A stretch of 64,000 nt of DNA from a virus (IMGVR_UViG_3300028392_000038:1-64000); one strand, 5' to 3'; shown: positions 11,827 to 31,639, numbered from the stretch's first letter. The notes: generated by a model not told the origin, from the letters alone. Made by a program: numbers and translations.

Positions 11827-12774
11827 ATGTGTGCAGCAATTTCTTACTTTGGAGGCAAGTCCTCAAATGTTTTCATGGAATTAATAAATTCAAAAATACC
11901 AAAAGATGGTAGTATAAAAACATACTTAGAACCATTTAGTGGTAGTTTTGCAACATATATGGATGACCCAAAACTAAAGTTTGATGTTGTTATCTATAAT
12001 GATAAAAATCGTCACCAGACGAATTTATATAAGTGTTGTGCTACTCCAGTTGAGTTTGTTATTCACTTAGAAAATCTTAAAAAAACTTTATTACACACAA
12101 CAGAAACAGACCCTTTGAAAAAATGGGATTTCTATAAAAAAGTTTATAATGAGTATATCAAAAATGACTTTTTAGATAATATGGATTTTGAGATAGGCGA
12201 TTTTGAAAAAGCTGCTATTTATGCTTTCTTAATCACATCTAGTTTTTCAAGTGTATATCCAAGGGGAGGTGGTTTCTCAGGCTATAAAAAAGATAAAGAC
12301 CGTTTGAAATTAGAAGTTCTTATTGATAAGTTAAAGAAAAATAAATACACCGATAAGTTATCTAGTATTAAAGAGTTTCTTAATATTGATTTTGAAGAGC
12401 TTATTAATAAATATGACTCAGAAGATACTTACTTGTATTTGGACCCACCATATCACAGACCTGATGAAAATGGTGATGATGATGCTAAAAGATTATCTTG
12501 GTATGGTGCTGATAAAGAAGGTATGTTTGGACCAGCATCACATAGAAGATTATTAGACTTGATTAAAAAATCAAAATGTCGTTGGTCATTATCTTATTAT
12601 TATTTTCCTTTATTAGAAGAATTATTACCAAGAGATAAATATATTTGGACTGAGAAAGAAGTATTTAGAAGTTCAGCACAAGGTGGTAATAATTCAGGAG
12701 GTAAAGGTGAACAAGCTAAGGGAGTTGAGTTATTAATTATGAATTATGATCCAACAACTGGTAAAAAATTATAA
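11827..12774 (+). CDS. D12-class DNA adenine N6-methyltransferase (Dam-like)
   Basis: A 315-aa protein with the Dam/D12 class motifs in order: YFGGKSS at 7-13, EPFSGSFA at 35-42 (motif I, S-adenosylmethionine binding) and YLDPPYH at 204-210 (motif IV, catalytic). The long insert between motif I and DPPY (about 165 residues) carries the target-recognition region. It methylates adenine in an unknown short site, usually to hide phage DNA from host restriction. A second methyltransferase of another class lies at 54260. The gene is followed after 2 bases by a small gene and shares its terminator. Confidence 0.9.
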   Translation: MCAAISYFGGKSSNVFMELINSKIPKDGSIKTYLEPFSGSFATYMDDPKLKFDVVIYNDKNRHQTNLYKCCATPVEFVIHLENLKKTLLHTTETDPLKKWDFYKKVYNEYIKNDFLDNMDFEIGDFEKAAIYAFLITSSFSSVYPRGGGFSGYKKDKDRLKLEVLIDKLKKNKYTDKLSSIKEFLNIDFEELINKYDSEDTYLYLDPPYHRPDENGDDDAKRLSWYGADKEGMFGPASHRRLLDLIKKSKCRWSLSYYYFPLLEELLPRDKYIWTEKEVFRSSAQGGNNSGGKGEQAKGVELLIMNYDPTTGKKL

Positions 12775-15606: not shown

Positions 15607-16272
15607 ATGGAAAATAAAATTGAAAGTAGAATTGATATCATTAACTTTTTATCAGAAAGATTTAACTATAAAAATTATTTAGAAATAGGTCTTAGAGAAC
15701 CATCACATTGCTTTAATCATATTAAATGTGAATCAAAAGATTCGGTAGATCCTGGGTTAGAGACAAATAATAATAGAGCTAAATATAAATACACATCCGA
15801 TAATTTTTTCTCAATGATTGATAATGGTTTATTAGATAAACCTCTTGATTATAAATGGGATATAGTATTTATAGATGGATTACACATTTCTGACCAAGTG
15901 GAAAGAGATATAAACAATGCTCTAAATCATCTTTCAGAAAACGGTAGTATAGTTTTACATGATTGTAATCCACCTACTGAGCATCATGCTAGAGTTTATT
16001 ATAATGATATTAGTACTACTGCAGGAGGTTTGTGGAATGGAACTGTTTGGAAGGCTATATATAAGATGAGATGCACAAGACCAGATTTAGATATTTGTGT
16101 AGTTGATAAGGATTGGGGTTGTGGTATCATCAGAAAAGGAAATCAAACAATTTGTCAATTTAATAATCCATATTTTGACTATGACAAATTTGACAAAAAT
16201 AGAGCAAAAGATTTGAATATAATATCAAATTTGGAATTACCCAATTGGGTAGAAAAACCATTTTATAAATAA
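15607..16272 (+). CDS. Class I SAM-dependent methyltransferase (family 24-like)
   Basis: A 221-aa protein with a Rossmann-type methyltransferase layout: NYLEIGLREPSHC at 18-30 as motif I (Glu-x-Gly), WDIVFIDGLHISDQVERDINNAL at about 89-111 and GSIVLHDCNPP at about 117-127. The FIDGxH and HDxNPP features are typical of the Methyltransf_24 family found in sugar and glycan gene clusters. It overlaps the glycosyltransferase gene by one base (TAATG), so it probably methylates a sugar in the same pathway. Confidence 0.78.
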   Translation: MENKIESRIDIINFLSERFNYKNYLEIGLREPSHCFNHIKCESKDSVDPGLETNNNRAKYKYTSDNFFSMIDNGLLDKPLDYKWDIVFIDGLHISDQVERDINNALNHLSENGSIVLHDCNPPTEHHARVYYNDISTTAGGLWNGTVWKAIYKMRCTRPDLDICVVDKDWGCGIIRKGNQTICQFNNPYFDYDKFDKNRAKDLNIISNLELPNWVEKPFYK

Positions 16273-17915
16273 TGAAAAGAAAACTATTATTCATAACACC
16301 ACACTTATCTACGGGTGGTCAACCACAATACTTACTACAAAAAATTAAATCATTTATAAATGAATTTGATATTTATTGTGTTGAGTATACTTATTATGGA
16401 GATGCTTATGTTGTTCAAAGAAATCAAGTTAAAAATTTATTAGGTGATAAGTTTTTTGGTCTATCTTCAGATAAACAATATCTATTAGAAATTATTGATA
16501 AAGTAAATCCGGATATAATACACTTTGAAGAAATACCCGACACTTTTGTTGATGAGTCTATCTTGAAAAAGATATATGATGAAAGCAGAAACTATTATAT
16601 TTTAGCAACTACACATTCATCCAATACTAAACCAGAAAATATTAAATATACAGCTGATAAGTTTATATTAGTATCAGAATGGAGTAAAGGAGTATTTGAC
16701 AATGTATTCAAAGGAAGTATTCCTTGTGATATATGGGAATATCCTATTATAAAAATTGATTATGATAAAGATAAGGCTAAAGAAGAATTAGGATTTGATA
16801 AGGAGTATAAACATATTCTAAATGTTGGTTTATTTACTTCAGGTAAAAATCAAAAACATATAATAGAATTGGCTAAAATTTGTGTAAATGAAAGGATTAA
16901 ATTTCATTTTGTAGGAAATCAGGCTGTTAATTTCAAAGATTATTGGGAACCTCTAATGGTTAATTTACCAGAGAATTGTATAATACATGGTGAGAGAGAT
17001 GATGTTGAAAAATTCTATATGGCTAGTGATTTATTTTACTTTCCATCATTATGGGAACTAAATCCAATCTCTATAAAAGAAGCTCTTAGTTTTAATCTTC
17101 CAATTTTCACAAAAGACTTAGAAACATATCCGAAATATAAAGAAGCTAATTACATAACAGATAATATATCAGCTAATAAAAATATTATATTAGAACACTT
17201 TGGAATCACAATTGAAAATGATTCTATTTGTTTAGTTGTAGCACATGCTGATACAAATTATAGAAAGAAGTTATTAAATGAGTGTTTAGGTTCTATTAAT
17301 TTACCAGTTGTTCTATCTACAAACTATCCAGTAAGTGAAGAAAATCAGTTACTATGTGATTATTATATTTATAATAAAAATAACCCTTTATTATATAAAG
17401 AGGAATTTAGCAAATATAATGTAAGTTATAATTATTGGCACATAGACAACACTGGGAAAAAGACAACAACATCATTTAATTTTGAGCATGGGTATGCTGC
17501 TTACTCTTTAATAAGAGATGGTTTAGAGTTTATAGAAAAACTGGGTTATAAAAAAGTTCACATCATAAACTATGATTATCAAATGTCAAATAAAACACTT
17601 AATGATAATTCTAAATCTTTAGATAATTGTGATATTATTGTTTATCAATATGATGCTAATAATTATGATGGTGATAGTTATTGTTCTGGATTCTTATCAT
17701 CAAGAATGGAACATATACTACCATTTTTCACCAAATTCAAAAGCAGAGAATCTTATTATACATCAGGTGATCCATTTAATATTTTAGAAATAAAGTTAAA
17801 AAAATCTATAGATGCTCAAAATTTAAATATCTATAAAACAGCATTTGATTCTCTAAAAGAAGATAATAAATTAAATCAAGAAGGACTCCTCCAATTTTCA
17901 AAATCAAAAGAATAA
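16272..17915 (+). CDS. GT4-like glycosyltransferase with a second C-terminal domain
   Basis: A 547-aa protein. Residues 1-310 look like a GT-B enzyme: N-terminal KLLFITPHLSTGGQPQYLLQKI, a second Rossmann half beginning HILNVGLFTSGKNQKHIIELAK (about 180-202), and the E-x7-E-like donor-site segment LWELNPISIKEAL. Residues about 320-547 form an additional domain beginning NDSICLVVAHADTNYRKKLLNECL, which I do not recognise; its opening resembles a sugar-nucleotide-binding GT-A start. It could be a two-domain glycosyltransferase. It lies 1 base before the heptosyltransferase-like gene in one operon. Confidence 0.8.
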   Translation: MKRKLLFITPHLSTGGQPQYLLQKIKSFINEFDIYCVEYTYYGDAYVVQRNQVKNLLGDKFFGLSSDKQYLLEIIDKVNPDIIHFEEIPDTFVDESILKKIYDESRNYYILATTHSSNTKPENIKYTADKFILVSEWSKGVFDNVFKGSIPCDIWEYPIIKIDYDKDKAKEELGFDKEYKHILNVGLFTSGKNQKHIIELAKICVNERIKFHFVGNQAVNFKDYWEPLMVNLPENCIIHGERDDVEKFYMASDLFYFPSLWELNPISIKEALSFNLPIFTKDLETYPKYKEANYITDNISANKNIILEHFGITIENDSICLVVAHADTNYRKKLLNECLGSINLPVVLSTNYPVSEENQLLCDYYIYNKNNPLLYKEEFSKYNVSYNYWHIDNTGKKTTTSFNFEHGYAAYSLIRDGLEFIEKLGYKKVHIINYDYQMSNKTLNDNSKSLDNCDIIVYQYDANNYDGDSYCSGFLSSRMEHILPFFTKFKSRESYYTSGDPFNILEIKLKKSIDAQNLNIYKTAFDSLKEDNKLNQEGLLQFSKSKE

Positions 17916-17916
17916 T

Positions 17917-19074
17917 ATGTATAATAATTTAGTTAAAAACACAAGTATAATAAGGAAAAGGAAACCTATAATAAATGTTAATTATATAAAAGGTCCTTTT
18001 GTAGAAATATTAAATTCACCGGGAGATGAATTTGAAGTTTCTTTTATAGATAAAAGGACAAGTAAATTACAACATAGAGGATCAATAACAGAAAATCATT
18101 GGATTAAAGCAAGTAAGTCATATTTCATAGATTGGTCTATATCTATAAATAAGAATAATGGTGAGGAAATCTATAATATAGATTTAGACCTAAAGGATAA
18201 AAGAGTTTTTATATGTTTTGATTCGTCTTCTTTAGGAGATAATTTAGCATGGATTCCATATGTAGATGAGTTTAGAAAGAAACATAATTGTCATGTCATC
18301 TGTTCTACATTTTGGAATAATCTATTTGAGAAAGAATACCCTGAAATAGAATTTATACCTAGAGGATTACCAGCGAACAATATATCAGCCCAATATAATA
18401 TTGGTTGGTATTATGAAGATGGCGAGATTAATACAAATAGTAACCCTACTAATTTCAGATTAAGACCTCTTCAACAAGCAGCTAGTGATATATTAGGATT
18501 AGAACATAAAGAAATTAAAACAAAAATAACTATAGATAATTCTATACAAAAAGAAAATATAGTAAGTATTGCTATTCATGGAACAGCTCAATCAAAATAT
18601 TGGAATAATGAAGAAGGTTGGCAACAAGTGGTTGATTATTTAAAATCCAAAGGATGGAGAGTTATTTTAATTTCTAGAGAAGAAGATGGATATATGGGAA
18701 ATAAACACCCTAATGGTATTGAAAAACATCCACAAGGAAGTATAGAGGAAGTAATAAAAGTACTTCAAAAAAGTAAATTATTTATTGGAATAGGATCTGG
18801 CTTGAGTTGGTTAAGTTGGGCAACAGGAACAACAACTTGTATTATTTCTGGATTTAGTTACCCTTATACAGAAACACTCCAAAACACAATTAGAATAGAA
18901 ACACCTAAAGGAAAATGCACTGGATGTTTTAATGATTTTAAGTTAGATGCTGGTGATTGGAACTGGTGTCCTGTAAATAAAGGAACTGATAAACAATTTG
19001 AGTGTAGTAAGTCAATAACTGGAGAAATGGTAATAGAAAAGATTAAGGATATAATAGAAAAAAACCCACTTTAG
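17917..19074 (+). CDS. TibC/BAHT-type protein O-heptosyltransferase-like protein
   Basis: A 385-aa protein. The core is a GT9-type fold (VFICFDSSSLGDNLAWIPYVDEF, then VSIAIHGTAQSKYWN, LFIGIGSGLSWLSWATGTTTCIISGFSYPYTE). The N-terminal strand-rich domain and a late four-cysteine cluster, Cys334-x2-Cys337, Cys351 and Cys363, match the iron-finger layout of autotransporter heptosyltransferases (TibC/AAH), which O-glycosylate serines on beta-solenoid repeats of adhesins. The neighbouring phage fibres carry comparable solenoid repeats and Ser/Thr-rich stalks, so they are plausible substrates (inference). It is the last gene of the 15607-19074 operon; its stop is inside a terminator. Confidence 0.82.
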   Translation: MYNNLVKNTSIIRKRKPIINVNYIKGPFVEILNSPGDEFEVSFIDKRTSKLQHRGSITENHWIKASKSYFIDWSISINKNNGEEIYNIDLDLKDKRVFICFDSSSLGDNLAWIPYVDEFRKKHNCHVICSTFWNNLFEKEYPEIEFIPRGLPANNISAQYNIGWYYEDGEINTNSNPTNFRLRPLQQAASDILGLEHKEIKTKITIDNSIQKENIVSIAIHGTAQSKYWNNEEGWQQVVDYLKSKGWRVILISREEDGYMGNKHPNGIEKHPQGSIEEVIKVLQKSKLFIGIGSGLSWLSWATGTTTCIISGFSYPYTETLQNTIRIETPKGKCTGCFNDFKLDAGDWNWCPVNKGTDKQFECSKSITGEMVIEKIKDIIEKNPL

Positions 19075-19086
19075 AGTGGGTTTTTT
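19059..19086. terminator. Bidirectional terminator overlapping the heptosyltransferase stop
   Basis: AAAAAACCCACT / AGTGGGTTTTTT stem (12 bp) with loop TTAG; the TAG stop at 19072-19074 is in the loop. It serves the convergent sulfotransferase gene too. Confidence 0.92.
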
Positions 19087-19088
19087 AT

Positions 19089-19907
19089 TTAATAATATTT
19101 AAATTCATCATAGAACCATTTGTAATTATTTTTAATCCAATCACAAGCTGCTTGTCCTAAAATTTCTTTATAATCATTTTTAAGAGGTTCTATTTTACTT
19201 TTTATATTATGATCACCATAAATACCATAAACAGAATCATCTTCTACAGTTATTTGTTGAACATTATTAAAGTCATGTGCAAATGGATTAACACCTAAGT
19301 AGTCATAAACTCTATCTATTTCTTTTTGAGGATTTGATGTTAAGTCTTCAAATCTAATAAATAACATTTTTTGATTTATACCTTCTCTAAATACTTGGTA
19401 TAATCTTTCTATTGAAATACCAACAGGTTGACCCGTTGACCAAATATCAATTCTTTTTTCAGTTGTAGTTCCGGTCATTTGAGCATGATTTACAATACCG
19501 GAATCTAAGTGTTGATTCTTTCTAAAGTTTTTCTCCATTGAAGCGAAAATTCCTCTTAAATCTCTAACCATACAAATAATCTTTGGTTCTGGATAAAATG
19601 AATTTAAAAATTGATAATGTACTCCCCAACCTCTACTCTTATCAATAACATATGGTTTATCAGTTATAGAATTAAAGAATCCATTAATACCTGAATTGCA
19701 AAAATTAGCAAAACCTCTCTTCATAAGTTCAGAATCTTGAGCTTTGAATTCTGGTGAGTTTGTGTAATTATTTCTAGCAGCATAAACAAGTTCTAATACC
19801 CCACTAGTAGGAGTTACATAAAATTCAGGATTTTGACCCATTATATTTTGTAGAAGTGTTGATCCTGCTCTAGGCAATGAACTTTGAAAGAATATCTTTT
19901 TTGGCAT
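19089..19907 (-). CDS. Sulfotransferase (PAPS-dependent)
   Basis: A 272-aa protein with both PAPS-binding elements of the sulfotransferase family: the 5'-phosphosulfate loop SSLPRAGSTLL at residues 9-19 and the 3'-phosphate segment VRDLRGIFASMEKNFR at 114-129 (Arg115, Ser123). LFIRFEDLTSNPQKEIDRVYDYLGV is a further family hallmark. It would add sulfate to a sugar, protein or lipid. Position between two glycosyltransferase genes and beside the fibre cluster suggests sulfation of a fibre glycan, which is inference. It is separated by one base from the upstream GT9-like gene. Confidence 0.88.
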   Translation of the reverse strand: MPKKIFFQSSLPRAGSTLLQNIMGQNPEFYVTPTSGVLELVYAARNNYTNSPEFKAQDSELMKRGFANFCNSGINGFFNSITDKPYVIDKSRGWGVHYQFLNSFYPEPKIICMVRDLRGIFASMEKNFRKNQHLDSGIVNHAQMTGTTTEKRIDIWSTGQPVGISIERLYQVFREGINQKMLFIRFEDLTSNPQKEIDRVYDYLGVNPFAHDFNNVQQITVEDDSVYGIYGDHNIKSKIEPLKNDYKEILGQAACDWIKNNYKWFYDEFKYY

Positions 19908-19908
19908 A

Positions 19909-20793
19909 TTATAAATTAATTTTTTGTATTATTAAATTAGGATCAAATATTTCTGATTCTAAAGAAGGGTATTCATGTAAAAGACCTTCAAAACTATAAT
20001 CAAATAAATAACTATCTGGTAGTTTTACAATATCTTTTGGAAGATCCGCTACAATATTTTTGTGTATATTATAACCAAATACCTTAGGTGATGTTCCCAC
20101 CCAAAGAACAACCGATGATAAACCAAGAGCAGCAGAGGCATGTTGTAAACAAGAATCTATTAAAACTCTTTTTTGAGATACCAATAATAAGGAAAATAAT
20201 TCCATATTAGGCATACTATCTGATACAACTTCTACTCCTTGCATAGCAACCGATCCTGCTCTACAAATTTGAATAATATGATAATCATTTCTATAATGGT
20301 TAACTAATATTTCAGATAAGTATACCGGAATATCTCTTGTCCATGAATTAATGTGGGGTTGATTAACCAAAGGACCACCATTGGTCTGAATAACCATTAT
20401 AGGTTTTTCTCTTGTCCACTTATTAATACCTAATTGTTTTTGTTTTGAATTAAATATCAAAGAAGGCATCTCTCCGTTATAATTTAGATTATAAAGTTTA
20501 CACCAATTTTCAATTAGAGGCATTTTTTTATGAATATGATCAGTTGTGAAGTAAGGCTCGTGTTTAAATATTAATGAATCTTTACCATCAATATAATCAT
20601 TATAGAAGTAAGGAGTCATTCCAATTTTATATACTCTATCAATAAATTTTAGATTTAAGAAAACTTCTGCGTAAGCACACACAACTATAAGTTTTCTATC
20701 AGGGTAGTTGTTTTTTATACACTCAGCAACAGCTGTTGAGGCTACATGTTTTCCCAATCCACCTTCAATGTGAAATATTGCAAATTTATCCAT
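19909..20793 (-). CDS. GT9-like glycosyltransferase
   Basis: A 294-aa protein resembling ADP-heptose-type GT9 enzymes: IEGGLGKHVASTAVAECIKNNYPDRKLIVV at the N-terminus (glycine-rich first Rossmann half) and PNMELFSLLLVSQKRVLIDSCLQHASAALGLSSVVLWVGTSPKVFGY late, the usual 'player on a list of stalled sugars' region in which D-S-x-x-x-H-x-x-A-A is conserved. The donor sugar cannot be read from sequence. It is co-transcribed with the sulfotransferase and downstream of the fibre genes on the same strand. Confidence 0.75.
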   Translation of the reverse strand: MDKFAIFHIEGGLGKHVASTAVAECIKNNYPDRKLIVVCAYAEVFLNLKFIDRVYKIGMTPYFYNDYIDGKDSLIFKHEPYFTTDHIHKKMPLIENWCKLYNLNYNGEMPSLIFNSKQKQLGINKWTREKPIMVIQTNGGPLVNQPHINSWTRDIPVYLSEILVNHYRNDYHIIQICRAGSVAMQGVEVVSDSMPNMELFSLLLVSQKRVLIDSCLQHASAALGLSSVVLWVGTSPKVFGYNIHKNIVADLPKDIVKLPDSYLFDYSFEGLLHEYPSLESEIFDPNLIIQKINL

Positions 20794-20830
20794 AGTTATT
20801 ATACTATGAATTTAATAAAATGTTTAAGAA

Positions 20831-23017
20831 TTATAGTTCTATCCAAGTGTTGTCTGGGTTAAATCGTAAAATGTATACTCCATTGGTTTGATTACCACTG
20901 TTCCAAAAAGTATGACCAACTAATCTAACTATGTTACCTGCTGCTGAAGGAGCTATGTAAGTCATCTCACCAGCGGTAGCTTTCATGTACATCGGATCTC
21001 CAATTTTAAACTCACTTATATAAGTAGTTGTAACAAATCCATTAATTAATATTGATGTTGCTTCGCCCTCTCCATGATTCCCAGCTACACAAATACCTAA
21101 CATAGATTTTGATGATATTCCAGAAGAGCTTGCGTCAGCTAAACCCCATTTACCACCTATTGTTCTATAACATAACTGACCAAAACTCAATCCTTCACTT
21201 GATATTTCTGAATATAATACATCTCCAGAATAAGAGGTACTGGCCCAACTCTGTAAATCACCCAATACTGATGTTATACCATCTAATATTGTTCCTTGTA
21301 ATGGAGTTTGACTATATCCACCAACTATAGATGTTCCATTATCCAGTATATTACTATTACCAATTGTACTAGATGATGTAAATTTAACCACATAATTACT
21401 TGATCCTGATACAGAAACGGATGTTCCAGAGCTACCTGATGATCCACTTGATCCAGTAGACCCACTTGATCCGGATGATCCACTTGATCCGGATGATCCA
21501 CTTGATCCGGATGATCCACTTGATCCAGTAGAACCAGTTAGTCCGGATGATCCACTTGATCCGGTAGAACCACTTGACCCGGATGATCCACTTGATCCTG
21601 AAGATCCACTTGATCCATTAGATCCACTTGATCCATTAGATCCATTATATCCTGATGATCCACTTGATCCTGAAGATCCACTTGATCCATTAGATCCACT
21701 TGATCCATTAGATCCATTATATCCTGATGATCCACTTGATCCATTAGATCCATTAGATCCGGATGATCCACTTGATCCTGATGGTCCACTTGATCCTGAA
21801 GATCCACTTGATCCATTAGATCCATTAGATCCTGATGATCCACTTGTTCCAGAAGATCCTGAAGATCCTGAATATCCTGAAGATCCTGGTATAGAAGCTG
21901 TCCAAGTAGCAACACCATTAGTATCACTAATTAAAATATAATTATTACCTTGTGTACCATCTTGTAATCTAAATGCGCCTGATTGTGTAGCATAAACATG
22001 TAATTTAGTAGATGGGTTTGATGTCCCAATACCTACATTTCCACCCATAAATGATCCAGCGTAAACAATAGATGATTGTGTTGTTGTAACAGCAGATACA
22101 TCGGTATAAATTCCATATAATCCATAGGATGTATTTCGTGGACTAAAACTACCACCCATTACAGAAGAAATTCCATATCTATTACCTGCATTTCCAATTA
22201 AAGGTAAATTATCAACAAGTCTTATACCCCATCTATCCGCGTTTCCTGGATCGGCAGTAGTATCCGAATCCATTTTAAGTGTTAGCAAAGCACTTCCAGA
22301 TGAATAAGTAGCTCCCATAGAAAATAATCCTGATGATAAAGCTTGGAATTGTGATATTTTGCCATTATATCCTGATATAACTCTTAAAGTAGTAGCCCCT
22401 GGTGTTCCACCAGCTCTATTAGTATGTTCTATTGTAACAACAGATGCTGTTGTCCCAGCATTATCTAAATTTCTTTTAAAGTAAGCTGCATGTCCACCTG
22501 TTTGGCTATTACTAGAAGGACCATCAACCAATAAAATTGTTGAATATGTTGTGTCACCTTGGTATTTAATGTGAACTCTACCGTCTGGTGATATAGTTCC
22601 AATACCAACATTTGTGCTTGTTACATAAATAGAACTTGTAGATGAAAGTGTTGTCGTTGATGTATAATAAGGTACATAATTATTTTGCCCTGATAAAGAA
22701 ACGCTTGTTCCTGATGATCCGCTTGATCCACTTGATCCTGATGATCCACTTGATCCTGAAGATCCTGAAGATCCTGAAGATCCACTTGATCCTGATGATC
22801 CAGATGTACCAGATGTACCAGCCCCAGAAGCCCATTCAGTTCCTGTAAATCTATAAATCTGGTTAGTAGTATCATCAAATACTAAAGAACCTTTACTAAC
22901 ACCCGACGTACTATTTGTACTAGCGTTATCGACAACTGGTAGATTTAGTCCTTTATTACCGGTACCGGTTCCTGTTATAAGTTGAATTCCACCACTATTC
23001 TTAATTATATAAGCCAT
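20831..23017 (-). CDS. Collagen-like tail fibre protein, 728 aa
   Basis: A probable fibre or adhesin. Residues 1-64 form a small N-terminal domain; 65-105 and about 375-532 are Gly-X-Y stretches with X/Y almost only Ser (some Thr, Asn, Tyr) and no proline apart from one or two. Between them lie NNYVPYYTSTTTLSSTSSIYVTSTNVGIGT and a carbohydrate-module-like region, and just before the second stretch is the shared KLHVYATQSGAFRLQDGTQG module. The C-terminus (533-728) holds SNYVVKFTSSSTIGNSNIL and a domain ending GVYILRFNPDNTWIEL. A promoter-like box lies 29 nt upstream. Confidence 0.8.
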   Translation of the reverse strand: MAYIIKNSGGIQLITGTGTGNKGLNLPVVDNASTNSTSGVSKGSLVFDDTTNQIYRFTGTEWASGAGTSGTSGSSGSSGSSGSSGSSGSSGSSGSSGSSGSSGTSVSLSGQNNYVPYYTSTTTLSSTSSIYVTSTNVGIGTISPDGRVHIKYQGDTTYSTILLVDGPSSNSQTGGHAAYFKRNLDNAGTTASVVTIEHTNRAGGTPGATTLRVISGYNGKISQFQALSSGLFSMGATYSSGSALLTLKMDSDTTADPGNADRWGIRLVDNLPLIGNAGNRYGISSVMGGSFSPRNTSYGLYGIYTDVSAVTTTQSSIVYAGSFMGGNVGIGTSNPSTKLHVYATQSGAFRLQDGTQGNNYILISDTNGVATWTASIPGSSGYSGSSGSSGTSGSSGSNGSNGSSGSSGSSGPSGSSGSSGSNGSNGSSGSSGYNGSNGSSGSNGSSGSSGSSGSSGYNGSNGSSGSNGSSGSSGSSGSSGSSGSTGSSGSSGLTGSTGSSGSSGSSGSSGSSGSSGSSGSTGSSGSSGSSGTSVSVSGSSNYVVKFTSSSTIGNSNILDNGTSIVGGYSQTPLQGTILDGITSVLGDLQSWASTSYSGDVLYSEISSEGLSFGQLCYRTIGGKWGLADASSSGISSKSMLGICVAGNHGEGEATSILINGFVTTTYISEFKIGDPMYMKATAGEMTYIAPSAAGNIVRLVGHTFWNSGNQTNGVYILRFNPDNTWIEL
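21421..21893 (-). repeat. Gly-Ser-Ser/Gly-Ser-Asn triplet tract (second collagen-like stretch)
   Basis: Tandem 9-bp in-frame repeats (GGATCATCT, GGATCAAGT, GGATCTAAT and variants) encoding G-S-S and G-S-N triplets with scattered GYN and GLT. Confidence 0.88.
22703..22825 (-). repeat. Short Gly-Ser-Ser triplet tract (first collagen-like stretch)
   Basis: About 13 Gly-X-Y triplets coded by GGATCA/GGATCT-type units, in the N-terminal part of the 728-aa fibre. Confidence 0.85.
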
Positions 23018-23046
23018 TCAGGTTCTTTAATTTTTATTTATATTTC

Positions 23047-23056
23047 TATATATTAA
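23047..23056 (-). promoter_or_regulatory. TTAATATATA element (minus) before the 728-aa fibre gene
   Basis: Exact on the minus strand, ending 29 nt before the ATG at 23017. Confidence 0.45.
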
Positions 23057-23079
23057 TTTTTCTATAATATTATATTCAA

Positions 23080-26000
23080 TTAAAATAGTGTTTGTGTATA
23101 TCTCACATAACAAACAAAATTTGCGGCGGTACTACCACTATTAATTGCCTCAACTACCAAATTGTTACCAGATACATTAATATTAACATCATGTATAGTT
23201 GAAACCGACTCAGCAACTACAATTTTAGTAACACCGGTAAATCCACCAACTATAGTAGCTGTTCCGGTAGGATTTGTAGCCGCCCCAAAAAGTTGTAGAT
23301 AAGTAGCATTATTTGAACCGCTTTCTAAAACAGCGATTTGCATTTCCAATGCTAACATACCACCAAGAGGAACATCAATCTGACCAGATGAAGATAAAGG
23401 ATTTGAATATAAAACTCCATTACCTACATGAACTGTATTTTTTAATATTATCTGGTTAGTCTGAGCATCTGCTTTAATAGATATATTACCTTTAGCGTGA
23501 GCAATTTGACCATATGTAAGAGCATCATTATCTGTTGATGGACCAAGTAATAAAGTACCAGCGGTTGGATCCTCATGTATATTATATGATGTATCACCAA
23601 TTGTGGTTGCTGATGTAAATTTAGTAAATACATTAGTTGTGCCAGAAAAAGTAGATCCACCACCAGATGATGTTGCTACTAATAATCCATTAGTTCCTAC
23701 TGTTACAAAACAAGAAACTGATGATGCCATTGATGTTATAATGATGTCATTAGCATGTGCTGTGTATTGTCTACTAGCGGTTATACCAGATCCAATAATA
23801 ACAGAACTAGTCATGCTATTAATATTATTATTAACACCACCAAGTATAGAAGCGAATGGAGAATTTGTAATTGTATTATTATTACCACCACCTATGGTTG
23901 AAAATTGTGAACTATAACCAGAGATTGTATTAGACATACCACCAGATATAGTTGAATTAAATGAATTGGTACCGGATATTGTATTAGTTAGACCACCACT
24001 TATAGTTGATTGAGATGAATTAAATGCAGAGATTGTATTACTATAACCACCACTTATGGTTGAATGACATGAATAATGTCCAGAGATTGTATTACATTGA
24101 CCACCACCTATAGATGAATTACGTGAATAATAACCGGAAATTGTATTGAGAGCACCACCACTTATAGTTGATTGATATGAATTATAATCAGCGATTGTAT
24201 TACAATAACCACCACTTATAGTTGAATAACATGAGCAATATCCAGAGATTGTATTAAAACCACCACCACCTATGGTTGAATGATATGAAAAAGCACCAGA
24301 GATTGTATTACATTGACCACCACTTATGGTTGATTGATCTGAATTAAATCCAGAGATTGTATTAATATAACCACCACTTATAGTTGATTGAGCTGAATTA
24401 AATCCAGAGATTGTATTAATATAACCACCACTAATGGTTGATTGATATGAACTAGCACCAGAGATTGTATTTTGATAACCACCACTAATGGTTGAATGAC
24501 ATGAAAAAGCACCAGAGATTGTATTTTGATAACCACCACTTATAGTAGAAAAAGGTGAATAACAACCGGATATTGTATTAAGACCACCACCACTAATGGT
24601 TGAATTAAATGAATACTGACCGGAGATTGTATTATTATTACCGCCACCTATAGTTGACCAATATGAATATTTTCCTGAGATTGTATTACAGTAACCACCA
24701 CCTATACTTGATTGAAATGATAAATATCCTGAGATTGTATTTCTGCAACCACCACTTATAGTTGAATTATATGATGAATATCCTGAGATTGTATTAATAG
24801 TTCCTCCACCGATAGTTGATAATTGTGAACACTGACCGGAAATTGTATTAATATAACCACCACTTATAGTTGATTGGCATGAATAAGTACCAGAGATTGC
24901 GTTAGATTTACCACCACCTATAGTTGAATTAAGTGATTGCTGTCCAGAGATTGTATTACTAGAACCACCACCTATAGTTGAATTAAATGACGAACGTCCT
25001 GAGATTGTATTCTCACTACCTCCACCTATAGTTGATTGACATGAATACTGACCGGAAATTGTATTAGTAATACCACCACCTATAGTTGATTGACATGAAT
25101 TAGTACCAGAGATTGTATTACAACAACCACCAGATATAGTGGAATCTCCACTAGTTGATATTAAATTTTTACGACCACCACTTATAGTTGAACGATTTGA
25201 ACCACTAAGAATTATATTAGAATTACCACCACCTATTGTTGAGGACAAAGCAGATGCTGTATTTCCACCACCACCACCTATTGTTGATCCAGTAGCGGAT
25301 GATGTATTAAGATAACCACCACTTATAACAGAATAAACACCGGAAGTGTCATTTTCACTACCACCGCCTATTGTTGATCCAGTAGCGGATGATGTATTAG
25401 AATTACCACCACCTATTGTTGAACTTACACCAGATACTATATTTTTATAACCACCACTTATAGTTGACCAATATGAACACTGACCGGAGATTGTATTACA
25501 TTGACCACCACTTATGGTTGATAAATATGAAAAGGTACCAGATATGGTATTACAACATCCACCACTTATAGTTGATTGATATGAGATATCACCGGAGATT
25601 GTATTATATTGACCACCACTTATAGTTGATAATTGTGAATCACCACCACAGATTGTATTATATCCACCACCTCCAATGGTTGATTGATATGAACTACCAC
25701 TAGATATTGTATTGCTTTCACCACCACTTATTGTTGAACGAGATGAACTATATCCAGAGATTGTATTTTGATAACCCCCACTAATGGTTGAATGACATGA
25801 ATAATGACCGGAAATTGTATTTTGTTGACCACCACCTATAGATGAATTACGTGAATAATGACCGGAAATTGTATTGCTTTCACCACCACTTATAGTTGAT
25901 AGATATGAACTATATCCTGAGATTGTATTACATTGACCGCCACCTATAGTTACTAATTGTGAATTAACACCGGAGATTGTATTAAATTGACCACCACCTA

Positions 26001-27231
26001 TAGTTACTAATTGTGAATACTTACCAGATATGGTATTACAACATCCACCACTTATAGTTGATTGATATGAGATATCACCGGAGATTGTATTAAGTTCACC
26101 ACCACTTATAGTTGAACGATATGAATTAGTACCGGAGATTGCATTACCATAACCACCACTTATAGTTGATTGATATGAACAATATCCTGAGATTGTATTA
26201 TTACCACCACCACTAATGGTTGAATGACATGAATAATGACCGGAAATTGTATTTTGATAACCACCACTTATAGTTGATTGACATGAACAATGACCGGAGA
26301 TTGTATTAGTATAACCACCACTAATGGTTGAATGAAATGAATAACAACCGGAAATTGTATTAGTATAACCACCACTAATGGTTGAATTTTGTGAATAATG
26401 ACCGGAGATTGTATTAAGTTCACCACCACTTATAGTTGAACGATATGAAGTATATCCAGAGATTGTATTAATATAACCACCACTTATAGTTGATTGACAT
26501 GAATAATGTCCAGAGATTGTATTAATATAACCACCACCTATAGATGAGTATTCCGAATGATATCCAGACACTGTATTAGATGAACCACCAGCGATTGTTG
26601 AGTAATAACCAGAAGATGTATTTTTATAACCACCAGAAATTGTTGAAAGATCACCACCTGCGGCATTTTGAAAACCACCGCTTATAGTAGAACAAGCTCC
26701 AGTAGAATTATTACCTAATCCACATCTAACACTTGATCCAGCACCAGCTCCCAATAAAATAACAGCTGAACCACCTCCACCACCAGCACTAGCAGACCAA
26801 CTACCAACACCACTAGCATCAGAAACTAAAACATAACCAGAACCTTCACTACCATCTTGTAGTCTGAAAGCATCAGATTGTGTTGAATAAATATGAAGTT
26901 TATTACTTGGAGCAGTTAGACCAATACCCACTTTATCGGTAGCAACAGATAAAGCATATTTATCCCATTTTCCTAACTGAACATAATCCCAAGAATAAAC
27001 TTGTAAAATAGGTAAACCAGATACATCATTAACTGAATGTAAAAGTCCAAACTTTTCATCAGTTACATTGAAAAGAACACCATAAGTACCAGTATAAACA
27101 ACTGTACCATCATCATCAACTTTCAATTTAATAGTTGATGCACTTAATCCACCAAAATCAATGTTTGGGTAATCATTTGATGCTGTAGATCCTAACTTAG
27201 GGGTTATTCTTATATCTCTTTGTGATGCCAT
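23080..27231 (-). CDS. Giant beta-solenoid repeat adhesin/fibre, 1383 aa
   Basis: Residues 1-100 are an N-terminal domain; 101-150 carry the VGIGLTAPSNKLHIYSTQSD / FRLQDG module shared with other fibres, followed by a Gly-rich linker. Residues 181-1137 consist of about 55 tandem repeats, mostly 18 aa, consensus STISGGYxNTISGxYSxx, some 15 aa. The regular Gly and Asn and alternating small/hydrophobic residues suggest a beta-solenoid like YadA-head or autotransporter passenger repeats. Many units carry Cys (GGCCNT, YSCH, CSCQ). The C-terminal 246 residues are a separate domain (TTNVFTKFTSATTIGDTS; VGNGVLYSNPLSSSGQIDVPLGGMLALEMQI). It is a likely receptor-binding protein; no enzyme motif is seen. 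Confidence 0.82.
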   Translation of the reverse strand: MASQRDIRITPKLGSTASNDYPNIDFGGLSASTIKLKVDDDGTVVYTGTYGVLFNVTDEKFGLLHSVNDVSGLPILQVYSWDYVQLGKWDKYALSVATDKVGIGLTAPSNKLHIYSTQSDAFRLQDGSEGSGYVLVSDASGVGSWSASAGGGGGSAVILLGAGAGSSVRCGLGNNSTGACSTISGGFQNAAGGDLSTISGGYKNTSSGYYSTIAGGSSNTVSGYHSEYSSIGGGYINTISGHYSCQSTISGGYINTISGYTSYRSTISGGELNTISGHYSQNSTISGGYTNTISGCYSFHSTISGGYTNTISGHCSCQSTISGGYQNTISGHYSCHSTISGGGNNTISGYCSYQSTISGGYGNAISGTNSYRSTISGGELNTISGDISYQSTISGGCCNTISGKYSQLVTIGGGQFNTISGVNSQLVTIGGGQCNTISGYSSYLSTISGGESNTISGHYSRNSSIGGGQQNTISGHYSCHSTISGGYQNTISGYSSSRSTISGGESNTISSGSSYQSTIGGGGYNTICGGDSQLSTISGGQYNTISGDISYQSTISGGCCNTISGTFSYLSTISGGQCNTISGQCSYWSTISGGYKNIVSGVSSTIGGGNSNTSSATGSTIGGGSENDTSGVYSVISGGYLNTSSATGSTIGGGGGNTASALSSTIGGGNSNIILSGSNRSTISGGRKNLISTSGDSTISGGCCNTISGTNSCQSTIGGGITNTISGQYSCQSTIGGGSENTISGRSSFNSTIGGGSSNTISGQQSLNSTIGGGKSNAISGTYSCQSTISGGYINTISGQCSQLSTIGGGTINTISGYSSYNSTISGGCRNTISGYLSFQSSIGGGYCNTISGKYSYWSTIGGGNNNTISGQYSFNSTISGGGLNTISGCYSPFSTISGGYQNTISGAFSCHSTISGGYQNTISGASSYQSTISGGYINTISGFNSAQSTISGGYINTISGFNSDQSTISGGQCNTISGAFSYHSTIGGGGFNTISGYCSCYSTISGGYCNTIADYNSYQSTISGGALNTISGYYSRNSSIGGGQCNTISGHYSCHSTISGGYSNTISAFNSSQSTISGGLTNTISGTNSFNSTISGGMSNTISGYSSQFSTIGGGNNNTITNSPFASILGGVNNNINSMTSSVIIGSGITASRQYTAHANDIIITSMASSVSCFVTVGTNGLLVATSSGGGSTFSGTTNVFTKFTSATTIGDTSYNIHEDPTAGTLLLGPSTDNDALTYGQIAHAKGNISIKADAQTNQIILKNTVHVGNGVLYSNPLSSSGQIDVPLGGMLALEMQIAVLESGSNNATYLQLFGAATNPTGTATIVGGFTGVTKIVVAESVSTIHDVNINVSGNNLVVEAINSGSTAANFVCYVRYTQTLF
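23821..26691 (-). repeat. About 55 tandem ~54-bp repeats in the solenoid gene
   Basis: In-frame units, mostly 54 bp, seen on the plus strand as AGAGATTGTATTA...CCACCACTTATAGTTGA... with varied residues at three or four positions per unit. Copies differ from each other, so the array is old or diversified rather than a recent perfect expansion. Confidence 0.93.
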
Positions 27232-27246: not shown

Positions 27247-27900
27247 TTATAAAAACCTCCATTTTAATTTATTGTAGTTATGTAGTATTTCTTGAGGTGT
27301 TAAAGCTCTATTATAATATTTAATATTTGAAATTTTACCATTGAATACATTAGTCGTCCCATCACGTGAAATCTCACTAACACCTTGAACATAGTTTGTG
27401 GTGACTGTTCCACTAACAACAGAAACGTTGTTATAGTATATGTTAGCGGTAGTTCCACTTCGTCTTATCACAACATTAGTCCATTCATTTGATTTTGGAA
27501 AGGTTGTAGTTTGCAAATCATCGGCGATGTTATAAGCTCTTAGCACAAAGTTTGTTGCATTTTTTCCAATCCAAAATCCACTTGTTGTGGTTGTTGTAAA
27601 TAATGGACTATAAGTACTGATCCAGTTTGTTGGATTGATCCAAAAATCAATTACAAACTCACCAGTACCAGGTGCTATTTGTGGTATATTACCTAAATTG
27701 ACATAATCATCTACACCATCAAATACAATAGAACCAATCTTAGAAGGATCAAATGTTGGACCATTTGTCAAAACACCATTATTAAAGTTTGATGATAAGT
27801 CATATAAGTCTGTACCAGATCCAGAATATGACTTATCATTACCAGCATCTACACAGAATACTAATCCATCTGTTATTATATCTAAACTACCTACTGACAT
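27247..27900 (-). CDS. Single LamG-like (concanavalin fold) protein, 217 aa
   Basis: One jelly-roll domain of the LamG/Laminin_G_3 type: start ITDGLVFCVDAGNDKSYSGSGTDLYDLS, middle SIVFDGVDDYVNLGN, strands to SNEWTNVVIRRSGTTANIYYNNVSV, and end ISNIKYYNRALTPQEILHNYNKLKWRF. Such domains bind carbohydrates or other surface ligands. No signal peptide; as a phage protein it would be a virion decoration. Its ATG overlaps the stop of the upstream three-domain gene by one base. Confidence 0.82.
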   Translation of the reverse strand: MSVGSLDIITDGLVFCVDAGNDKSYSGSGTDLYDLSSNFNNGVLTNGPTFDPSKIGSIVFDGVDDYVNLGNIPQIAPGTGEFVIDFWINPTNWISTYSPLFTTTTTSGFWIGKNATNFVLRAYNIADDLQTTTFPKSNEWTNVVIRRSGTTANIYYNNVSVVSGTVTTNYVQGVSEISRDGTTNVFNGKISNIKYYNRALTPQEILHNYNKLKWRFL

Positions 27901-29972
27901 TATAAACCATATCTACTTTTTTGAGCATTGTAATTCTGAAGAACTTCAGAATCAGAAAGGCTTTTCTTATATATTCTAACAACAGGTATTTTGCCTTGGA
28001 ATCTTCTACTAGAATAGTCATATCCATCTCCAATTCTCATATTATTGATATATCCAACAAATCCACCAGTGACTGATTGACTATTTACTAACTTTTGATT
28101 ATTTATATAGATAGAGCAGTTAGTACCATCATATGTAACAACTAAGTTATACCAAGTATTATCAGTAATTACACCCGGACAATCACCACCAAATCCAAAG
28201 GAGAAGTCACCACTAACATTAAGATTAATACTTAATCTAGCTCTACCTGCTCCAAAATTTACCCAAGTAGCGTAGTATCCAGGACTAGTATACTGCTCTA
28301 TTCTCAACATTGTATTACCGCCATTAAAATCTATTATATTTTTATAGTCAGTCACACTACCCGAATTAGCCCACATATCTAATGTAAATATTCCAAATCC
28401 GCTTCCTAAACTACCAACATTTGCATAATCATCAACACCATCAAAAACCATAACACCACTATCAGATGGATCATAATAAGCACCATTTGTTAATGTTGCA
28501 TTATGAGAGTTTGCGGTTAAATCATACCAAGTTGTTCCACTACCAGGATAAGATAAAACATCAGCAGCATCTAAACTTAAATATAATTGGTCAGTTACAA
28601 TTGGCGCAACTGGAGGTAGGTTATCATTTAAAAATCTCCATTTAGTTATATTATAATTATATAGTATTTCAGATGCGGGAAGAGCTCTTCTATAAATTTG
28701 AGAAATTGCTATTTTACCATCAATTGTTGATATAGGTGTAGTGTTGTCACCTGATGTATAAGCACCAACTCTAGCTGGATTATTAGACTGAAAATCCAAT
28801 CCATTCCAAGATGATATTGCAGAACTACCAGTTAATGCTTCTAAAACACCGTTATAATATATCTTTATATTAGAACTTCTATCATAAACATAAGTAGCCA
28901 TAAACCACTGATAAGTAGGTATTGTAGTTGATCCATATGGTAAAACATCTGATCCTCCATTACCTTGCATAAAAGCCCATAATTTTTGACTAGAGGAGTT
29001 AAATCCAATAGCATATCTATAATTTTGAGTACCTGATAAACCTTTACTAAAAAACCATTGGTCACTACTTGTTGCTGATATCTTAACCCAAGTATTAATT
29101 GTATAACTATATGTTCCCATATCTAGTACATCACCAAGTTCTACAAAATCATCAACACCATCAAATCCCATATTATTAGCATCAATAGAACTAAAAGAAG
29201 CACCATTTGTTAATGTACCATCATATGAATTTGCTGTTAAGTCATACCAAGTTGTTCCTGTTCCAGAATAAGATGTTAGGTCACCAGCATCTAAATTTAA
29301 TACTAAATCACTTGTTGTTATACTAGGAAAAGTATTGTTATTGAAATATCTAAATTTAATAGCATTATAATTATGCTCAACTTCATCGGAAGAAAGAACT
29401 CTATCATAAATTAAAAAACTTGAAACTTTACCATTAAATGGATAAAGAGAACTGGTCGTCTCATCACCTATAATAGAAAATATAGAATCATTTGTAGTTG
29501 ATATAGTCATTGTACCAACTGATACACCATCTACAAATATCTGATGACTATTTCCATTTCTAACACAAACAATATTATGCCAAACATCCTTTGATAAAGT
29601 ATAAGATAAACTACCAAATGCTCCACCATAATTTATATAAAATTGAGAACCATCATTATAAACCATATAATAGTTTGCTATATTACTACCAACTATAACA
29701 CCACTAAATGCTCTAGCGTTTATCCATATTGACCAACTACCAACTGTTCCTATATTTACATCATTCAACTTAACATAATCACTAAGACCATCAAAATCAA
29801 TAGCACCATCATTCCAAGGAGCATAGTAAGCACCATTGGTTAATACATTAGGAGTTACTGTCTTTAGATCATACCAGTTCAGTCCTATACCGGGATAAGA
29901 CTTATTGTTAGCAGCATCTAAGCAGAAAACTAAACCATTAGTTATTATAGGTGGAAAAGTATTATATGCCAT
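27900..29972 (-). CDS. Triple LamG-like domain protein, 690 aa
   Basis: Three consecutive LamG-like domains at about residues 8-210, 217-440 and 453-690. Each opens with a TxGLVxxLDA(A/G)xxxSYPGxGxxWYDL motif, carries FDGxxDYV and closes with a (Y)xxxLxxxEVLxNYNxxKxR motif. The repetition reflects tandem gene duplication. The likely role is binding a host polysaccharide as part of the tail fibre region. It is followed by an overlapping gene for the single-domain protein at 27247-27900 and preceded by an overlapping 94-aa gene. Confidence 0.82.
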   Translation of the reverse strand: MAYNTFPPIITNGLVFCLDAANNKSYPGIGLNWYDLKTVTPNVLTNGAYYAPWNDGAIDFDGLSDYVKLNDVNIGTVGSWSIWINARAFSGVIVGSNIANYYMVYNDGSQFYINYGGAFGSLSYTLSKDVWHNIVCVRNGNSHQIFVDGVSVGTMTISTTNDSIFSIIGDETTSSLYPFNGKVSSFLIYDRVLSSDEVEHNYNAIKFRYFNNNTFPSITTSDLVLNLDAGDLTSYSGTGTTWYDLTANSYDGTLTNGASFSSIDANNMGFDGVDDFVELGDVLDMGTYSYTINTWVKISATSSDQWFFSKGLSGTQNYRYAIGFNSSSQKLWAFMQGNGGSDVLPYGSTTIPTYQWFMATYVYDRSSNIKIYYNGVLEALTGSSAISSWNGLDFQSNNPARVGAYTSGDNTTPISTIDGKIAISQIYRRALPASEILYNYNITKWRFLNDNLPPVAPIVTDQLYLSLDAADVLSYPGSGTTWYDLTANSHNATLTNGAYYDPSDSGVMVFDGVDDYANVGSLGSGFGIFTLDMWANSGSVTDYKNIIDFNGGNTMLRIEQYTSPGYYATWVNFGAGRARLSINLNVSGDFSFGFGGDCPGVITDNTWYNLVVTYDGTNCSIYINNQKLVNSQSVTGGFVGYINNMRIGDGYDYSSRRFQGKIPVVRIYKKSLSDSEVLQNYNAQKSRYGL

Positions 29973-30246
29973 TCATTAAAAAGCTTTGTGTTCCAACCCA
30001 TTCTACTGTTGATGCAATCTGTAGAATTTGTGGATGTGTAAAGTATTTATTATTATCATAAGACACCAATTTACCATTAGTATCTAAAGATTGAATTGTT
30101 GCTGGTTTATTACCATCATACTTTAGAATAAATTTTGTCAGCTCTGTGTTCTTTCTAACAGTATCTGCTGATGTTTGTGATACCTGAGAATAATCTACAT
30201 TATTCAATTCAGATATGTTTGCTATTACATAAGTGTTTGTGTTCAT
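29962..30246 (-). CDS. Small hypothetical protein between LamG genes, 94 aa
   Basis: Not recognised. Sequence is polar with a hydrophobic C-terminus (ILQIASTVEWVGTQSFLMNGI). KFILKYDGNKPATIQSLDTNGKLVSYDNNKYFTHPQIL suggests beta structure. It overlaps the next gene by 11 bases and starts 4 bases after the double-LamG gene ends, so it belongs to the fibre operon and may be a linker or assembly protein. Confidence 0.65.
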   Translation of the reverse strand: MNTNTYVIANISELNNVDYSQVSQTSADTVRKNTELTKFILKYDGNKPATIQSLDTNGKLVSYDNNKYFTHPQILQIASTVEWVGTQSFLMNGI

Positions 30247-30250
30247 ATTT

Positions 30251-31639
30251 TTAATATCTATTTTTTATTGCATTATAATTTTGAAGAACTTCAGCTCCGG
30301 TTAATCCTATTGAATAAACTCTCAATATTGATATTTTACCATTTGCAAATCCATTGGGAAGATTCCAACTAGCACAACCTAAAGTAATCTGAATATTACT
30401 ACTATTAGAAATACTCATTGATCCTGTTTGATATAAAACACTATCTAAATATATTCTAATAACTCCAGATATACTAGTTATCACAAAATGATACCATTGT
30501 CCGGTATTCATTGTTGGAACCGTCGCTGTTACATTTGTTGTTGTGCTATTACTATATATTGCCAATGATGTTGAATTTGGAATATATAAACACCAATCAA
30601 AATTAGATCCATTTGTATCTTTACCTATTAAAATTTGACCGGATGAGAATGAACTAGAATTAAACCAACCTTCTAATGTATAGTCAGTAATTGATAAATC
30701 AAATCCAGAATTATAAGACATTGTACCATAAGTGCTAACACCATCAAATACCAAACTACCACCATTTAATGAGCTATATACAGGACCATTTATTAATATA
30801 ACATCATTGTTATTAACTGTTAAATCATTCCAATTAGTCCCTGTTCCGGGATAAGATGTTGAGTTACCAGCATCTAAATTTAATATTAATCCAGTAGTTA
30901 TTATAGGGGGAATAGATGGAACAATAGGTGAAACTACATCAACAGTTTCTCTAAATCTTCTTACTGTTATATTGTAGTTTTCAGTTATCTCTAATTGAGA
31001 TAATGCTTTATTATAAACTAATAATTGTTCTATATTACCTTTATAGTAAAAAGTAGGTATTCCATTTCCTCTTCCTATTTCCAATGGATTACTTGTCACT
31101 TGAGCATTTATAGTTTGAGATACTGTAGTTGCATCAGAAACACCATTCAAATATATGTTTAATGATGTTCCATCCCAAACAAAAGTAAAGTGATACCAAG
31201 TATCAGTAGTTAAAGTAGTTGCACCTCCTATAGTGTTTATAGTAGCACCATCACTTATTGATCCTCTCAAATTAACACCTGTTGAATCCAAATCTACTTG
31301 GTAATCAAAATCAGATGCTGCGGAACCTATCCTTTTAGCTATAATAGTACCAAAAGAATTAGGAGAACTTGACATTTTTATCCAACCTGATATAGAACCA
31401 GTAGATGTCAACTCTAAACTTGTAGATGAAGACATAGTACCATATCCACTCATACCATCAAATATAATACTATTAGCTAGTGATATAGATGATTGTGTAG
31501 TTGAAAGTGAAGCATTGTTTGAGTTATTAGTTAGGTCATACCAGATATTAACTCCTGAAAATGACTTTTTATTAGGAACATCCAAATACAAGACCAATCC
31601 ATTAGTAACAATAGGTTTAAAAGGATAAGAGGTACTCAT
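30251..31639 (-). CDS. Double LamG-like domain protein, 462 aa
   Basis: Two LamG-like domains at about residues 8-222 and 245-462. The first opens IVTNGLVLYLDVPNKKSFSGVNIWYDLTNNSNN and the second IITTGLILNLDAGNSTSYPGTGTNWNDLTVNNND; both contain IFDGMSGYGTM or VFDGVSTYGTM and end ALSQLEITENYN or LTGAEVLQNYNAIKNRY. The linker has SPIVPSIPP. It ends one base after the next gene's start region in a tightly packed operon with the giant collagen-like gene upstream. Confidence 0.82.
   Translation of the reverse strand: MSTSYPFKPIVTNGLVLYLDVPNKKSFSGVNIWYDLTNNSNNASLSTTQSSISLANSIIFDGMSGYGTMSSSTSLELTSTGSISGWIKMSSSPNSFGTIIAKRIGSAASDFDYQVDLDSTGVNLRGSISDGATINTIGGATTLTTDTWYHFTFVWDGTSLNIYLNGVSDATTVSQTINAQVTSNPLEIGRGNGIPTFYYKGNIEQLLVYNKALSQLEITENYNITVRRFRETVDVVSPIVPSIPPIITTGLILNLDAGNSTSYPGTGTNWNDLTVNNNDVILINGPVYSSLNGGSLVFDGVSTYGTMSYNSGFDLSITDYTLEGWFNSSSFSSGQILIGKDTNGSNFDWCLYIPNSTSLAIYSNSTTTNVTATVPTMNTGQWYHFVITSISGVIRIYLDSVLYQTGSMSISNSSNIQITLGCASWNLPNGFANGKISILRVYSIGLTGAEVLQNYNAIKNRY

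Follow-up and report, generated by a model that had tools for sequence, protein, structure and literature searches.

The window analysed here, a stretch of 64,000 nucleotides, is part of a virus record of 115,972 bases. This record most likely represents a piece of a megaphage genome, because its capsid protein shares about 70% identity with the capsid proteins of 635–642 kb megaphages (71% with the one from an uncultured phage of 642 kb) and its nearest IMG/VR relative is a sister contig of 385 kb. On the plus strand, three genes follow one another head to tail as a tight operon, overlapping or separated by 1 base: a class I SAM methyltransferase (15607–16272; Methyltransf_24, Pfam PF13578, 5e-8), whose stop overlaps the start of the following gene by 1 base; a GT4 glycosyltransferase (16272–17915; Glycos_transf_1, PF00534, 9e-16) with a 'PHLSTGG' N-terminus and a C-terminal half without assignment; and, last, the gene of a 385-aa predicted protein O-heptosyltransferase of the BAHT family (TibC/AAH-like; 17917–19074). 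The minus strand then carries a sulfotransferase (19089–19907; Sulfotransfer_3, PF13469, 5e-19), a putative glycosyltransferase of no assigned family (19909–20793) and a fibre module. Pfam agrees with the methyltransferase, GT4 and sulfotransferase named in an earlier sequence-only reading of this DNA; its 'GT9-like enzyme', 19909–20793, could not be upheld, as this product has no Pfam match and merely a weak match to a PHROG of unknown function. Sequence clustering ties this product to phage BAHT loci: the putative glycosyltransferase 'GGLGKHVASTAV' recurs in 9 of the 82 such loci nearest to ours.

The fibre module comprises, in order and all on the minus strand, a collagen-like fibre (20831–23017), a YadA-like solenoid (23080–27231), three concanavalin-A/Laminin_G-like adhesin proteins (27247–27900, 27900–29972 and 30251–31639; a homologous cluster, with Laminin_G_3 matching the first), with a small ORF (29962–30246) ahead of the third, and two further collagen-like fibres, the first of them giant (31641–38987 and 39114–41774). 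Triplet counts reveal long uninterrupted Gly-X-Y runs in all three collagen-like ORFs, confirming the Gly-Ser-Ser/Gly-Thr-Ser stalks noted earlier, and Pfam Collagen matches 20831–23017 at 3e-28. The three stalk proteins hold 65, 709 and 198 triplets, respectively, about 970 altogether, with mostly Ser in the third position (51, 658 and 185); in the giant fibre, X is Ser or Thr in 665, and the GTS pattern described below matches. We regard the last two of these fibres as prime candidate acceptors of the heptosyltransferase, 20831–23017 as a candidate and the solenoid as a secondary candidate.

The product of 17917–19074 had been described as a GT9-type, TibC-like enzyme with four cysteines, and this description was borne out. 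It matches TIGR04414 (Aah/TibC O-heptosyltransferase, NCBIfam) with 279.9 bits (E 2.9e-83) against a cut-off of 200, while the LPS heptosyltransferase models (WaaC/WaaF/WaaQ) score at most 28 bits, and phmmer matches the TibC chains in PDB (4rb4, 4rap) at about 1e-58, with 37% identity over the aligned region. As previously reported, TibC uses a catalytic Asp110, phosphate contacts by Thr226 and Lys230, a heptose contact by Trp305 and a four-Cys iron finger (PMC4358343). The corresponding residues here are D108, T223, K227 and W298, and Cys334, Cys337, Cys351 and Cys363 align with the iron-finger Cys339, Cys342, Cys358 and Cys370. The proposed structure-based search against TibC was run with an AlphaFold2 model built from a 14-row alignment (pLDDT 85), and Foldseek aligned the model with TibC over about 380 columns (TM 0.84–0.86, E 7.7e-36), including the N-terminal beta-barrel, with WaaC far behind (TM about 0.4–0.6). 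Profile, residues and predicted fold place the enzyme in the BAHT (TibC/AAH) family.

Two functional positions differ from TibC. Val279 replaces Arg286, which touches the adenine of ADP-heptose and is needed for activity, and Gly293 replaces Pro300, the stereoselectivity residue (PMC4358343). Among dereplicated sequences, the iron-finger cysteines are invariant (84 of 84 viral and 59 of 59 in the bacterial set), whereas the Arg286 position holds Arg in 51 of 59 bacterial-set sequences and Val in 64 of 84 viral ones. Because of this replacement, here and in most viral relatives, use of an ADP-sugar by the enzyme is not assured and would be the weakest step of the model presented below. Its family placement by profile and fold is unaffected.

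BAHT relatives are widespread in phages. An alignment-based scan found at least 588 viral contigs encoding them (270 in a single-sequence scan), and among annotated phage records only four match, including the isolate Microcystis phage Mel-JY01. Fibre, terminase, portal and sheath genes surround the BAHT region in related loci, and most of them share its strand. GT4 is the usual partner gene: the strict 'PHLSTGG' motif occurs in 97 of 167 viral BAHT loci, and related phages carry GT4–BAHT, MT–BAHT and GT4–BAHT–MT fusions (MT, methyltransferase) as well as a GT4–MT fusion (L041:7836–9998). A sulfotransferase homologue lies beside an APS-kinase-like gene in the distant phage L090. These last observations, namely the GT4–BAHT–MT and MT–BAHT fusions and the L090 gene pair, make methyl and sulfate decoration of the glycan plausible. 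Among the first 82 phage BAHT loci, i.e. the nearest relatives, an adenylyltransferase resembling HldE domain II was found in 33 and a kinase resembling domain I in 31, typically as a pair directly downstream of the BAHT gene. Their scores of 101 and 117 bits fall below the equivalog cut-offs, and TIGR02199 run on 40 BAHT records gave 14 matches, none above its equivalog cut-off; hence we call these genes HldE-like. Their position beside BAHT favours ADP-heptose as the donor. No match to the HldE-like adenylyltransferase was found in the present record nor, with TIGR02199, in the 385 kb sister, both of which may be incomplete.

A tree of 143 dereplicated sequences, several deep nodes of which are weakly supported, places most viral sequences in one large clade that includes a few contigs from bacterial assemblies. 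Several of these (L108, L112 and L114) are plainly phage, and others belong to bacterial chromosomes (Methylobacter, Methylomicrobium, Burkholderiales). Outside the viral clade, 6 gammaproteobacterial sequences and 44 classic bacterial sequences form a clade each, and a few divergent viral sequences are placed elsewhere.

The gene neighbours of these clades point to an acceptor. Classic BAHTs adjoin strand-loop-strand autotransporters. By inspection, at 12 of 13 bacterial loci from the two non-classic clades BAHT is accompanied by a short, exported protein of (GTS)n/(GSS)n type, often encoded by the next gene and otherwise within a few genes (L106, L107, L109, L110, L113, L116–L120 and L122), or by an SSG-rich one (L105); no GTS-type repeat protein was found near BAHT at L111. 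The repeat proteins beside BAHT begin with a signal peptide in methanotrophs and with a lipobox-like start in gammaproteobacteria. Under automated criteria, GTS-type repeats occur at 12 of 17 loci of the non-classic clades (three of the 12 being phage contigs) versus 0 of 63 others, and strand-loop-strand-like repeats at 0 of 17 versus 27 of 63. The grouping of the 17 loci agrees with the tree, although it was decided on post hoc, with the loci already inspected.

The same association appears in phages. BAHT was found in 9 of 33 phage contigs picked solely for a GTS repeat (9 of 15 if at least 50 kb long) versus 0 of 41 controls (p 3.5e-4), the controls being chosen by a different repeat pattern and not by phylogeny; conversely, the GTS pattern occurs in 27 of 43 BAHT records versus 0 of 41 controls. 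A terminase-based set intended as a control matched for lineage was set aside, as it consisted mostly of short contigs or known BAHT carriers. Among megaphage relatives, BAHT and GTS are both present in LR756501 (965 pattern matches) and in our record, and neither was found in LR756502, LR745206 or LR756500; LR756504 is the exception, with BAHT and no GTS match. The association is not strict in either direction, with many GTS contigs having no BAHT match and several BAHT contigs, some of at least 50 kb and some incomplete, having no detectable GTS/GSS repeats. The pattern of six G-[ST]-[ST] triplets is stricter than biology and missed L090, the stalk of which has 293 Gly-Ser/Thr triplets. Common lineage and habitat can account for part of the phage and megaphage co-occurrence, whereas shared ancestry explains the bacterial BAHT/GTS gene pairs less easily.

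The sequence-only reading had offered the solenoid or the stalks as the acceptor. Owing to the bacterial gene pairs and the phage co-occurrence, the Gly-Ser/Thr-Ser stalks are the better supported of the two, and the solenoid gains much less. The approximately 18-aa repeats described for 23080–27231 are real, with 43 spacings between successive I[SG]GG motifs of exactly 18 residues. The YadA-like head of UspA1 (3pr7) matches this protein at E 2e-12 to 6e-14 (the latter with a fragment), Pfam gave no YadA-type match, and its AlphaFold2 model is a beta-solenoid (pLDDT 71). Foldseek returned no match at E ≤ 0.001, a weak test with a single-sequence, single-chain model of a probable trimer. TIGR04415, the profile of the AIDA/TibA strand-loop-strand repeat, finds nothing at E ≤ 10 anywhere in the record and is above cut-off in 0 of 42 related records, and we rejected strand-loop-strand repeats as the acceptor in this phage. 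By these comparisons, the solenoid is a predicted YadA-type head and not a strand-loop-strand repeat.

The BAHT enzyme might still heptosylate this head as the counterpart of an autotransporter passenger, with the stalks incidental. The solenoid adjoins the enzyme in the window, in the sister L002 and in the distant L090/L091 lineage, in which a pair of solenoid genes clusters with a BAHT relative and with the same sulfotransferase and putative glycosyltransferase as here; it is rich in Ser and Thr (267 and 155 of 1383 residues); and the TibC-like BimC of Burkholderia has been published to work with the autotransporter BimA. However, apart from this phage, L002 and L090/L091, no solenoid was found at the other 79 nearest phage BAHT loci (within 10 kb of BAHT), so that co-occurrence gives no support for it as a general partner. 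Furthermore, its repeat is not of the strand-loop-strand type, solenoid-bearing L090 also has the long stalk, and the bacterial members of the non-classic clades adjoin GTS proteins rather than solenoids. We therefore consider the head unlikely as the principal substrate, although it could be a second acceptor beside the stalks. Searching DNA for the solenoid motif ISGGxxNTISG retrieved seven unrelated short stretches.

LPS and capsule loci likewise contain GT9 and GT4 enzymes, sulfotransferases and genes for ADP-heptose, and phage-encoded seroconversion enzymes are well known. The cluster could serve superinfection exclusion by altering glycans on the host surface (LPS core, capsule or O-antigen) instead of modifying virion proteins. 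We find this similarly improbable, since the equivalog matched is a protein O-heptosyltransferase, by a margin of 280 to at most 28 bits over the WaaC/WaaF/WaaQ models, the enzyme retains the complete four-Cys iron finger and the N-terminal beta-barrel region of TibC, related loci sit inside late structural gene blocks, and in bacteria the clade members have exported repeat proteins as gene partners. WaaC and WaaF (GT9) do share the GT-B fold and ADP-heptose chemistry with the family; nevertheless, they have no iron finger, act on an LPS acceptor and are the weaker match to the phage enzyme in both structure and profile. Least probable of all, BAHT would modify another virion protein, such as the approximately 2300-aa fibre L041:2–7030, a type that 31 of 82 phage loci encode some 3 kb upstream of BAHT and on its strand, and the GTS link would be a by-product of shared fibre modules; the long BAHT contigs lacking detectable repeats fit this, but some of them are incomplete, and the repeat-protein pairs on bacterial chromosomes would be left unexplained.

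Self-glycosylation of virion fibres, proposed in the sequence-only reading, thus fits best, with the stalks favoured over the solenoid as the acceptor. Specifically, the viral BAHT probably O-heptosylates the collagen-like fibre stalks of the phage itself, and the glycan is extended, methylated and sulfated by the neighbouring enzymes. The family, the fold, the conserved catalytic and iron residues, the operon, the fusions and the GTS/GSS association in phages and bacteria are established by the analysis; what follows on acceptor, sugar, sequence of reactions and gain for the phage is inferred. The cytoplasmic TibC-like enzyme, a member of the large clade with most of the viral sequences, would act late in infection, before fibres assemble into virions, and transfer heptose to Ser, and possibly Thr too, of newly made Gly-[Ser/Thr]-Ser stalks of the tail fibres. 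Since no HldE-like gene was found in this phage, the host would most likely supply the ADP-heptose. The adjacent GT4 would probably extend the heptose, and the methyltransferase and sulfotransferase would probably cap the glycan. The resulting dense, negatively charged coat may make the long stalks stiffer, shield them from proteases and influence adsorption.

On a broader scale, the evidence is about evenly poised for a model in which a widespread viral and bacterial branch of TibC/AAH enzymes gave up strand-loop-strand beta-helices as its acceptor for collagen-like Gly-[Ser/Thr]-Ser repeats, possibly along with a change of donor, given the loss of Arg286. Phages would use this branch together with GT4, methyl- and sulfotransferases for a capped stalk glycan, and some would supply ADP-heptose genes of their own. 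Judged by hundreds of relatives, the enzyme is likely to add sugar to the phage's own collagen-like fibres, which are not known as a target of the BAHT family. If so, they would represent a second acceptor class for these enzymes and a one-enzyme route to glycosylated Gly-Ser/Thr repeats in the cytoplasm. Phage fibre glycosylation has been little studied, though host range depends on fibre chemistry, and with an enzyme, a likely acceptor motif, a bacterial gene pair and the cultured phage Mel-JY01 now named, TibC-type virion glycosylation becomes directly testable. Our literature search, in a collection with few subscription journals, found no paper on phage BAHTs or on BAHT action on collagen-like repeats, and an earlier mention is possible.

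There are precedents for parts of this model. BclA-type collagen-like proteins of Bacillus spores carry O-glycans on Gly-X-Thr stalks that project from the particle surface. In this they resemble the system proposed here, but the enzymes and sugars differ, and the particle is a spore rather than a virion. In some mycobacteriophages, phage-encoded glycosyltransferases act on the phage's own capsid or tail proteins; to our knowledge, the glycosylated virion proteins of phages involve neither BAHT enzymes nor heptose. The closest relation is with TibC of ETEC and AAH of DAEC (PMC4358343; PDB 4RAP/4RB4), E. coli heptosyltransferases of surface adhesins, which share with the phage enzyme the profile, the fold with its N-terminal beta-barrel, the catalytic Asp, the Thr/Lys phosphate contacts, the Trp heptose contact, the four-Cys iron finger and a gene location beside a repetitive surface protein. 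In contrast to them, the present enzyme, apart from its sequence divergence and the two substitutions described above, is phage-encoded, has collagen-like stalks instead of strand-loop-strand autotransporters as partners, and is accompanied by a GT4, a methyltransferase and a sulfotransferase. TibC modifies Ser but not Thr, within a beta-helical passenger (PMC4358343). A collagen-like stalk differs in shape from that substrate, and the ring-and-helix mechanism need not apply to it. In the repeats of L107 and L113, the Thr at position X is the constant residue.

Pattern matching gave nearly a thousand GTS repeat matches in the single 735 kb phage LR756501.1, a megaphage relative that encodes both these Gly-[Ser/Thr]-Ser repeats and BAHT, the TibC/AAH-like protein O-heptosyltransferase. 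The matches lie on the minus strand from about 103,558 onward, and their number implies that the collagen-like stalks are extremely long or many. In the window, long plus-strand open frames at 32827-35592 and 36025-38727 (921 and 900 aa, with 'PDDPEVP' repeats) run antisense to the giant GTS/GSS repeat gene (31641-38987, minus strand). These frames could be mistaken for genes; evidently, they are a by-product of the repeat composition of that gene. Elsewhere in the window, an ORF resembling, by eye, a homing endonuclease (11005-11826) adjoins a probable DNA adenine methylase (11827-12774).

Among bacteria, the methanotroph chromosomes L107, L109, L110 and L113 pair a BAHT gene with a short exported (GTS)n/(GSS)n protein, as do the gammaproteobacterial contigs L116-L120 and L122, and several of the paired proteins across these loci appear lipoprotein-like.

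A different fibre, of about 2300 aa, is encoded upstream of BAHT at L041:2-7030 and at about 30 related loci. This fibre has a gp53-like tail-fibre C-terminus and segments matching intein/Hint-like families (PF14890, PF07591 and PF01079), and may contain an intein or Hint domain.

A group of small coiled-coil-like proteins, without clear family, borders both sides of the pair formed by BAHT and the glycosyltransferase GT4 in many phages; this group (for example L058:7505-7789 and L036:11196-11558) numbers 121 copies across 67 phage BAHT loci. Close to the BAHT/sulfotransferase cluster in the L090 and L045 loci, one gene is APS-kinase-like and the gene after it is NMN-adenylyltransferase-like (L090:16080-16996; L045:35-842). 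Possibly, this gene pair lets the phage supply PAPS for sulfation.
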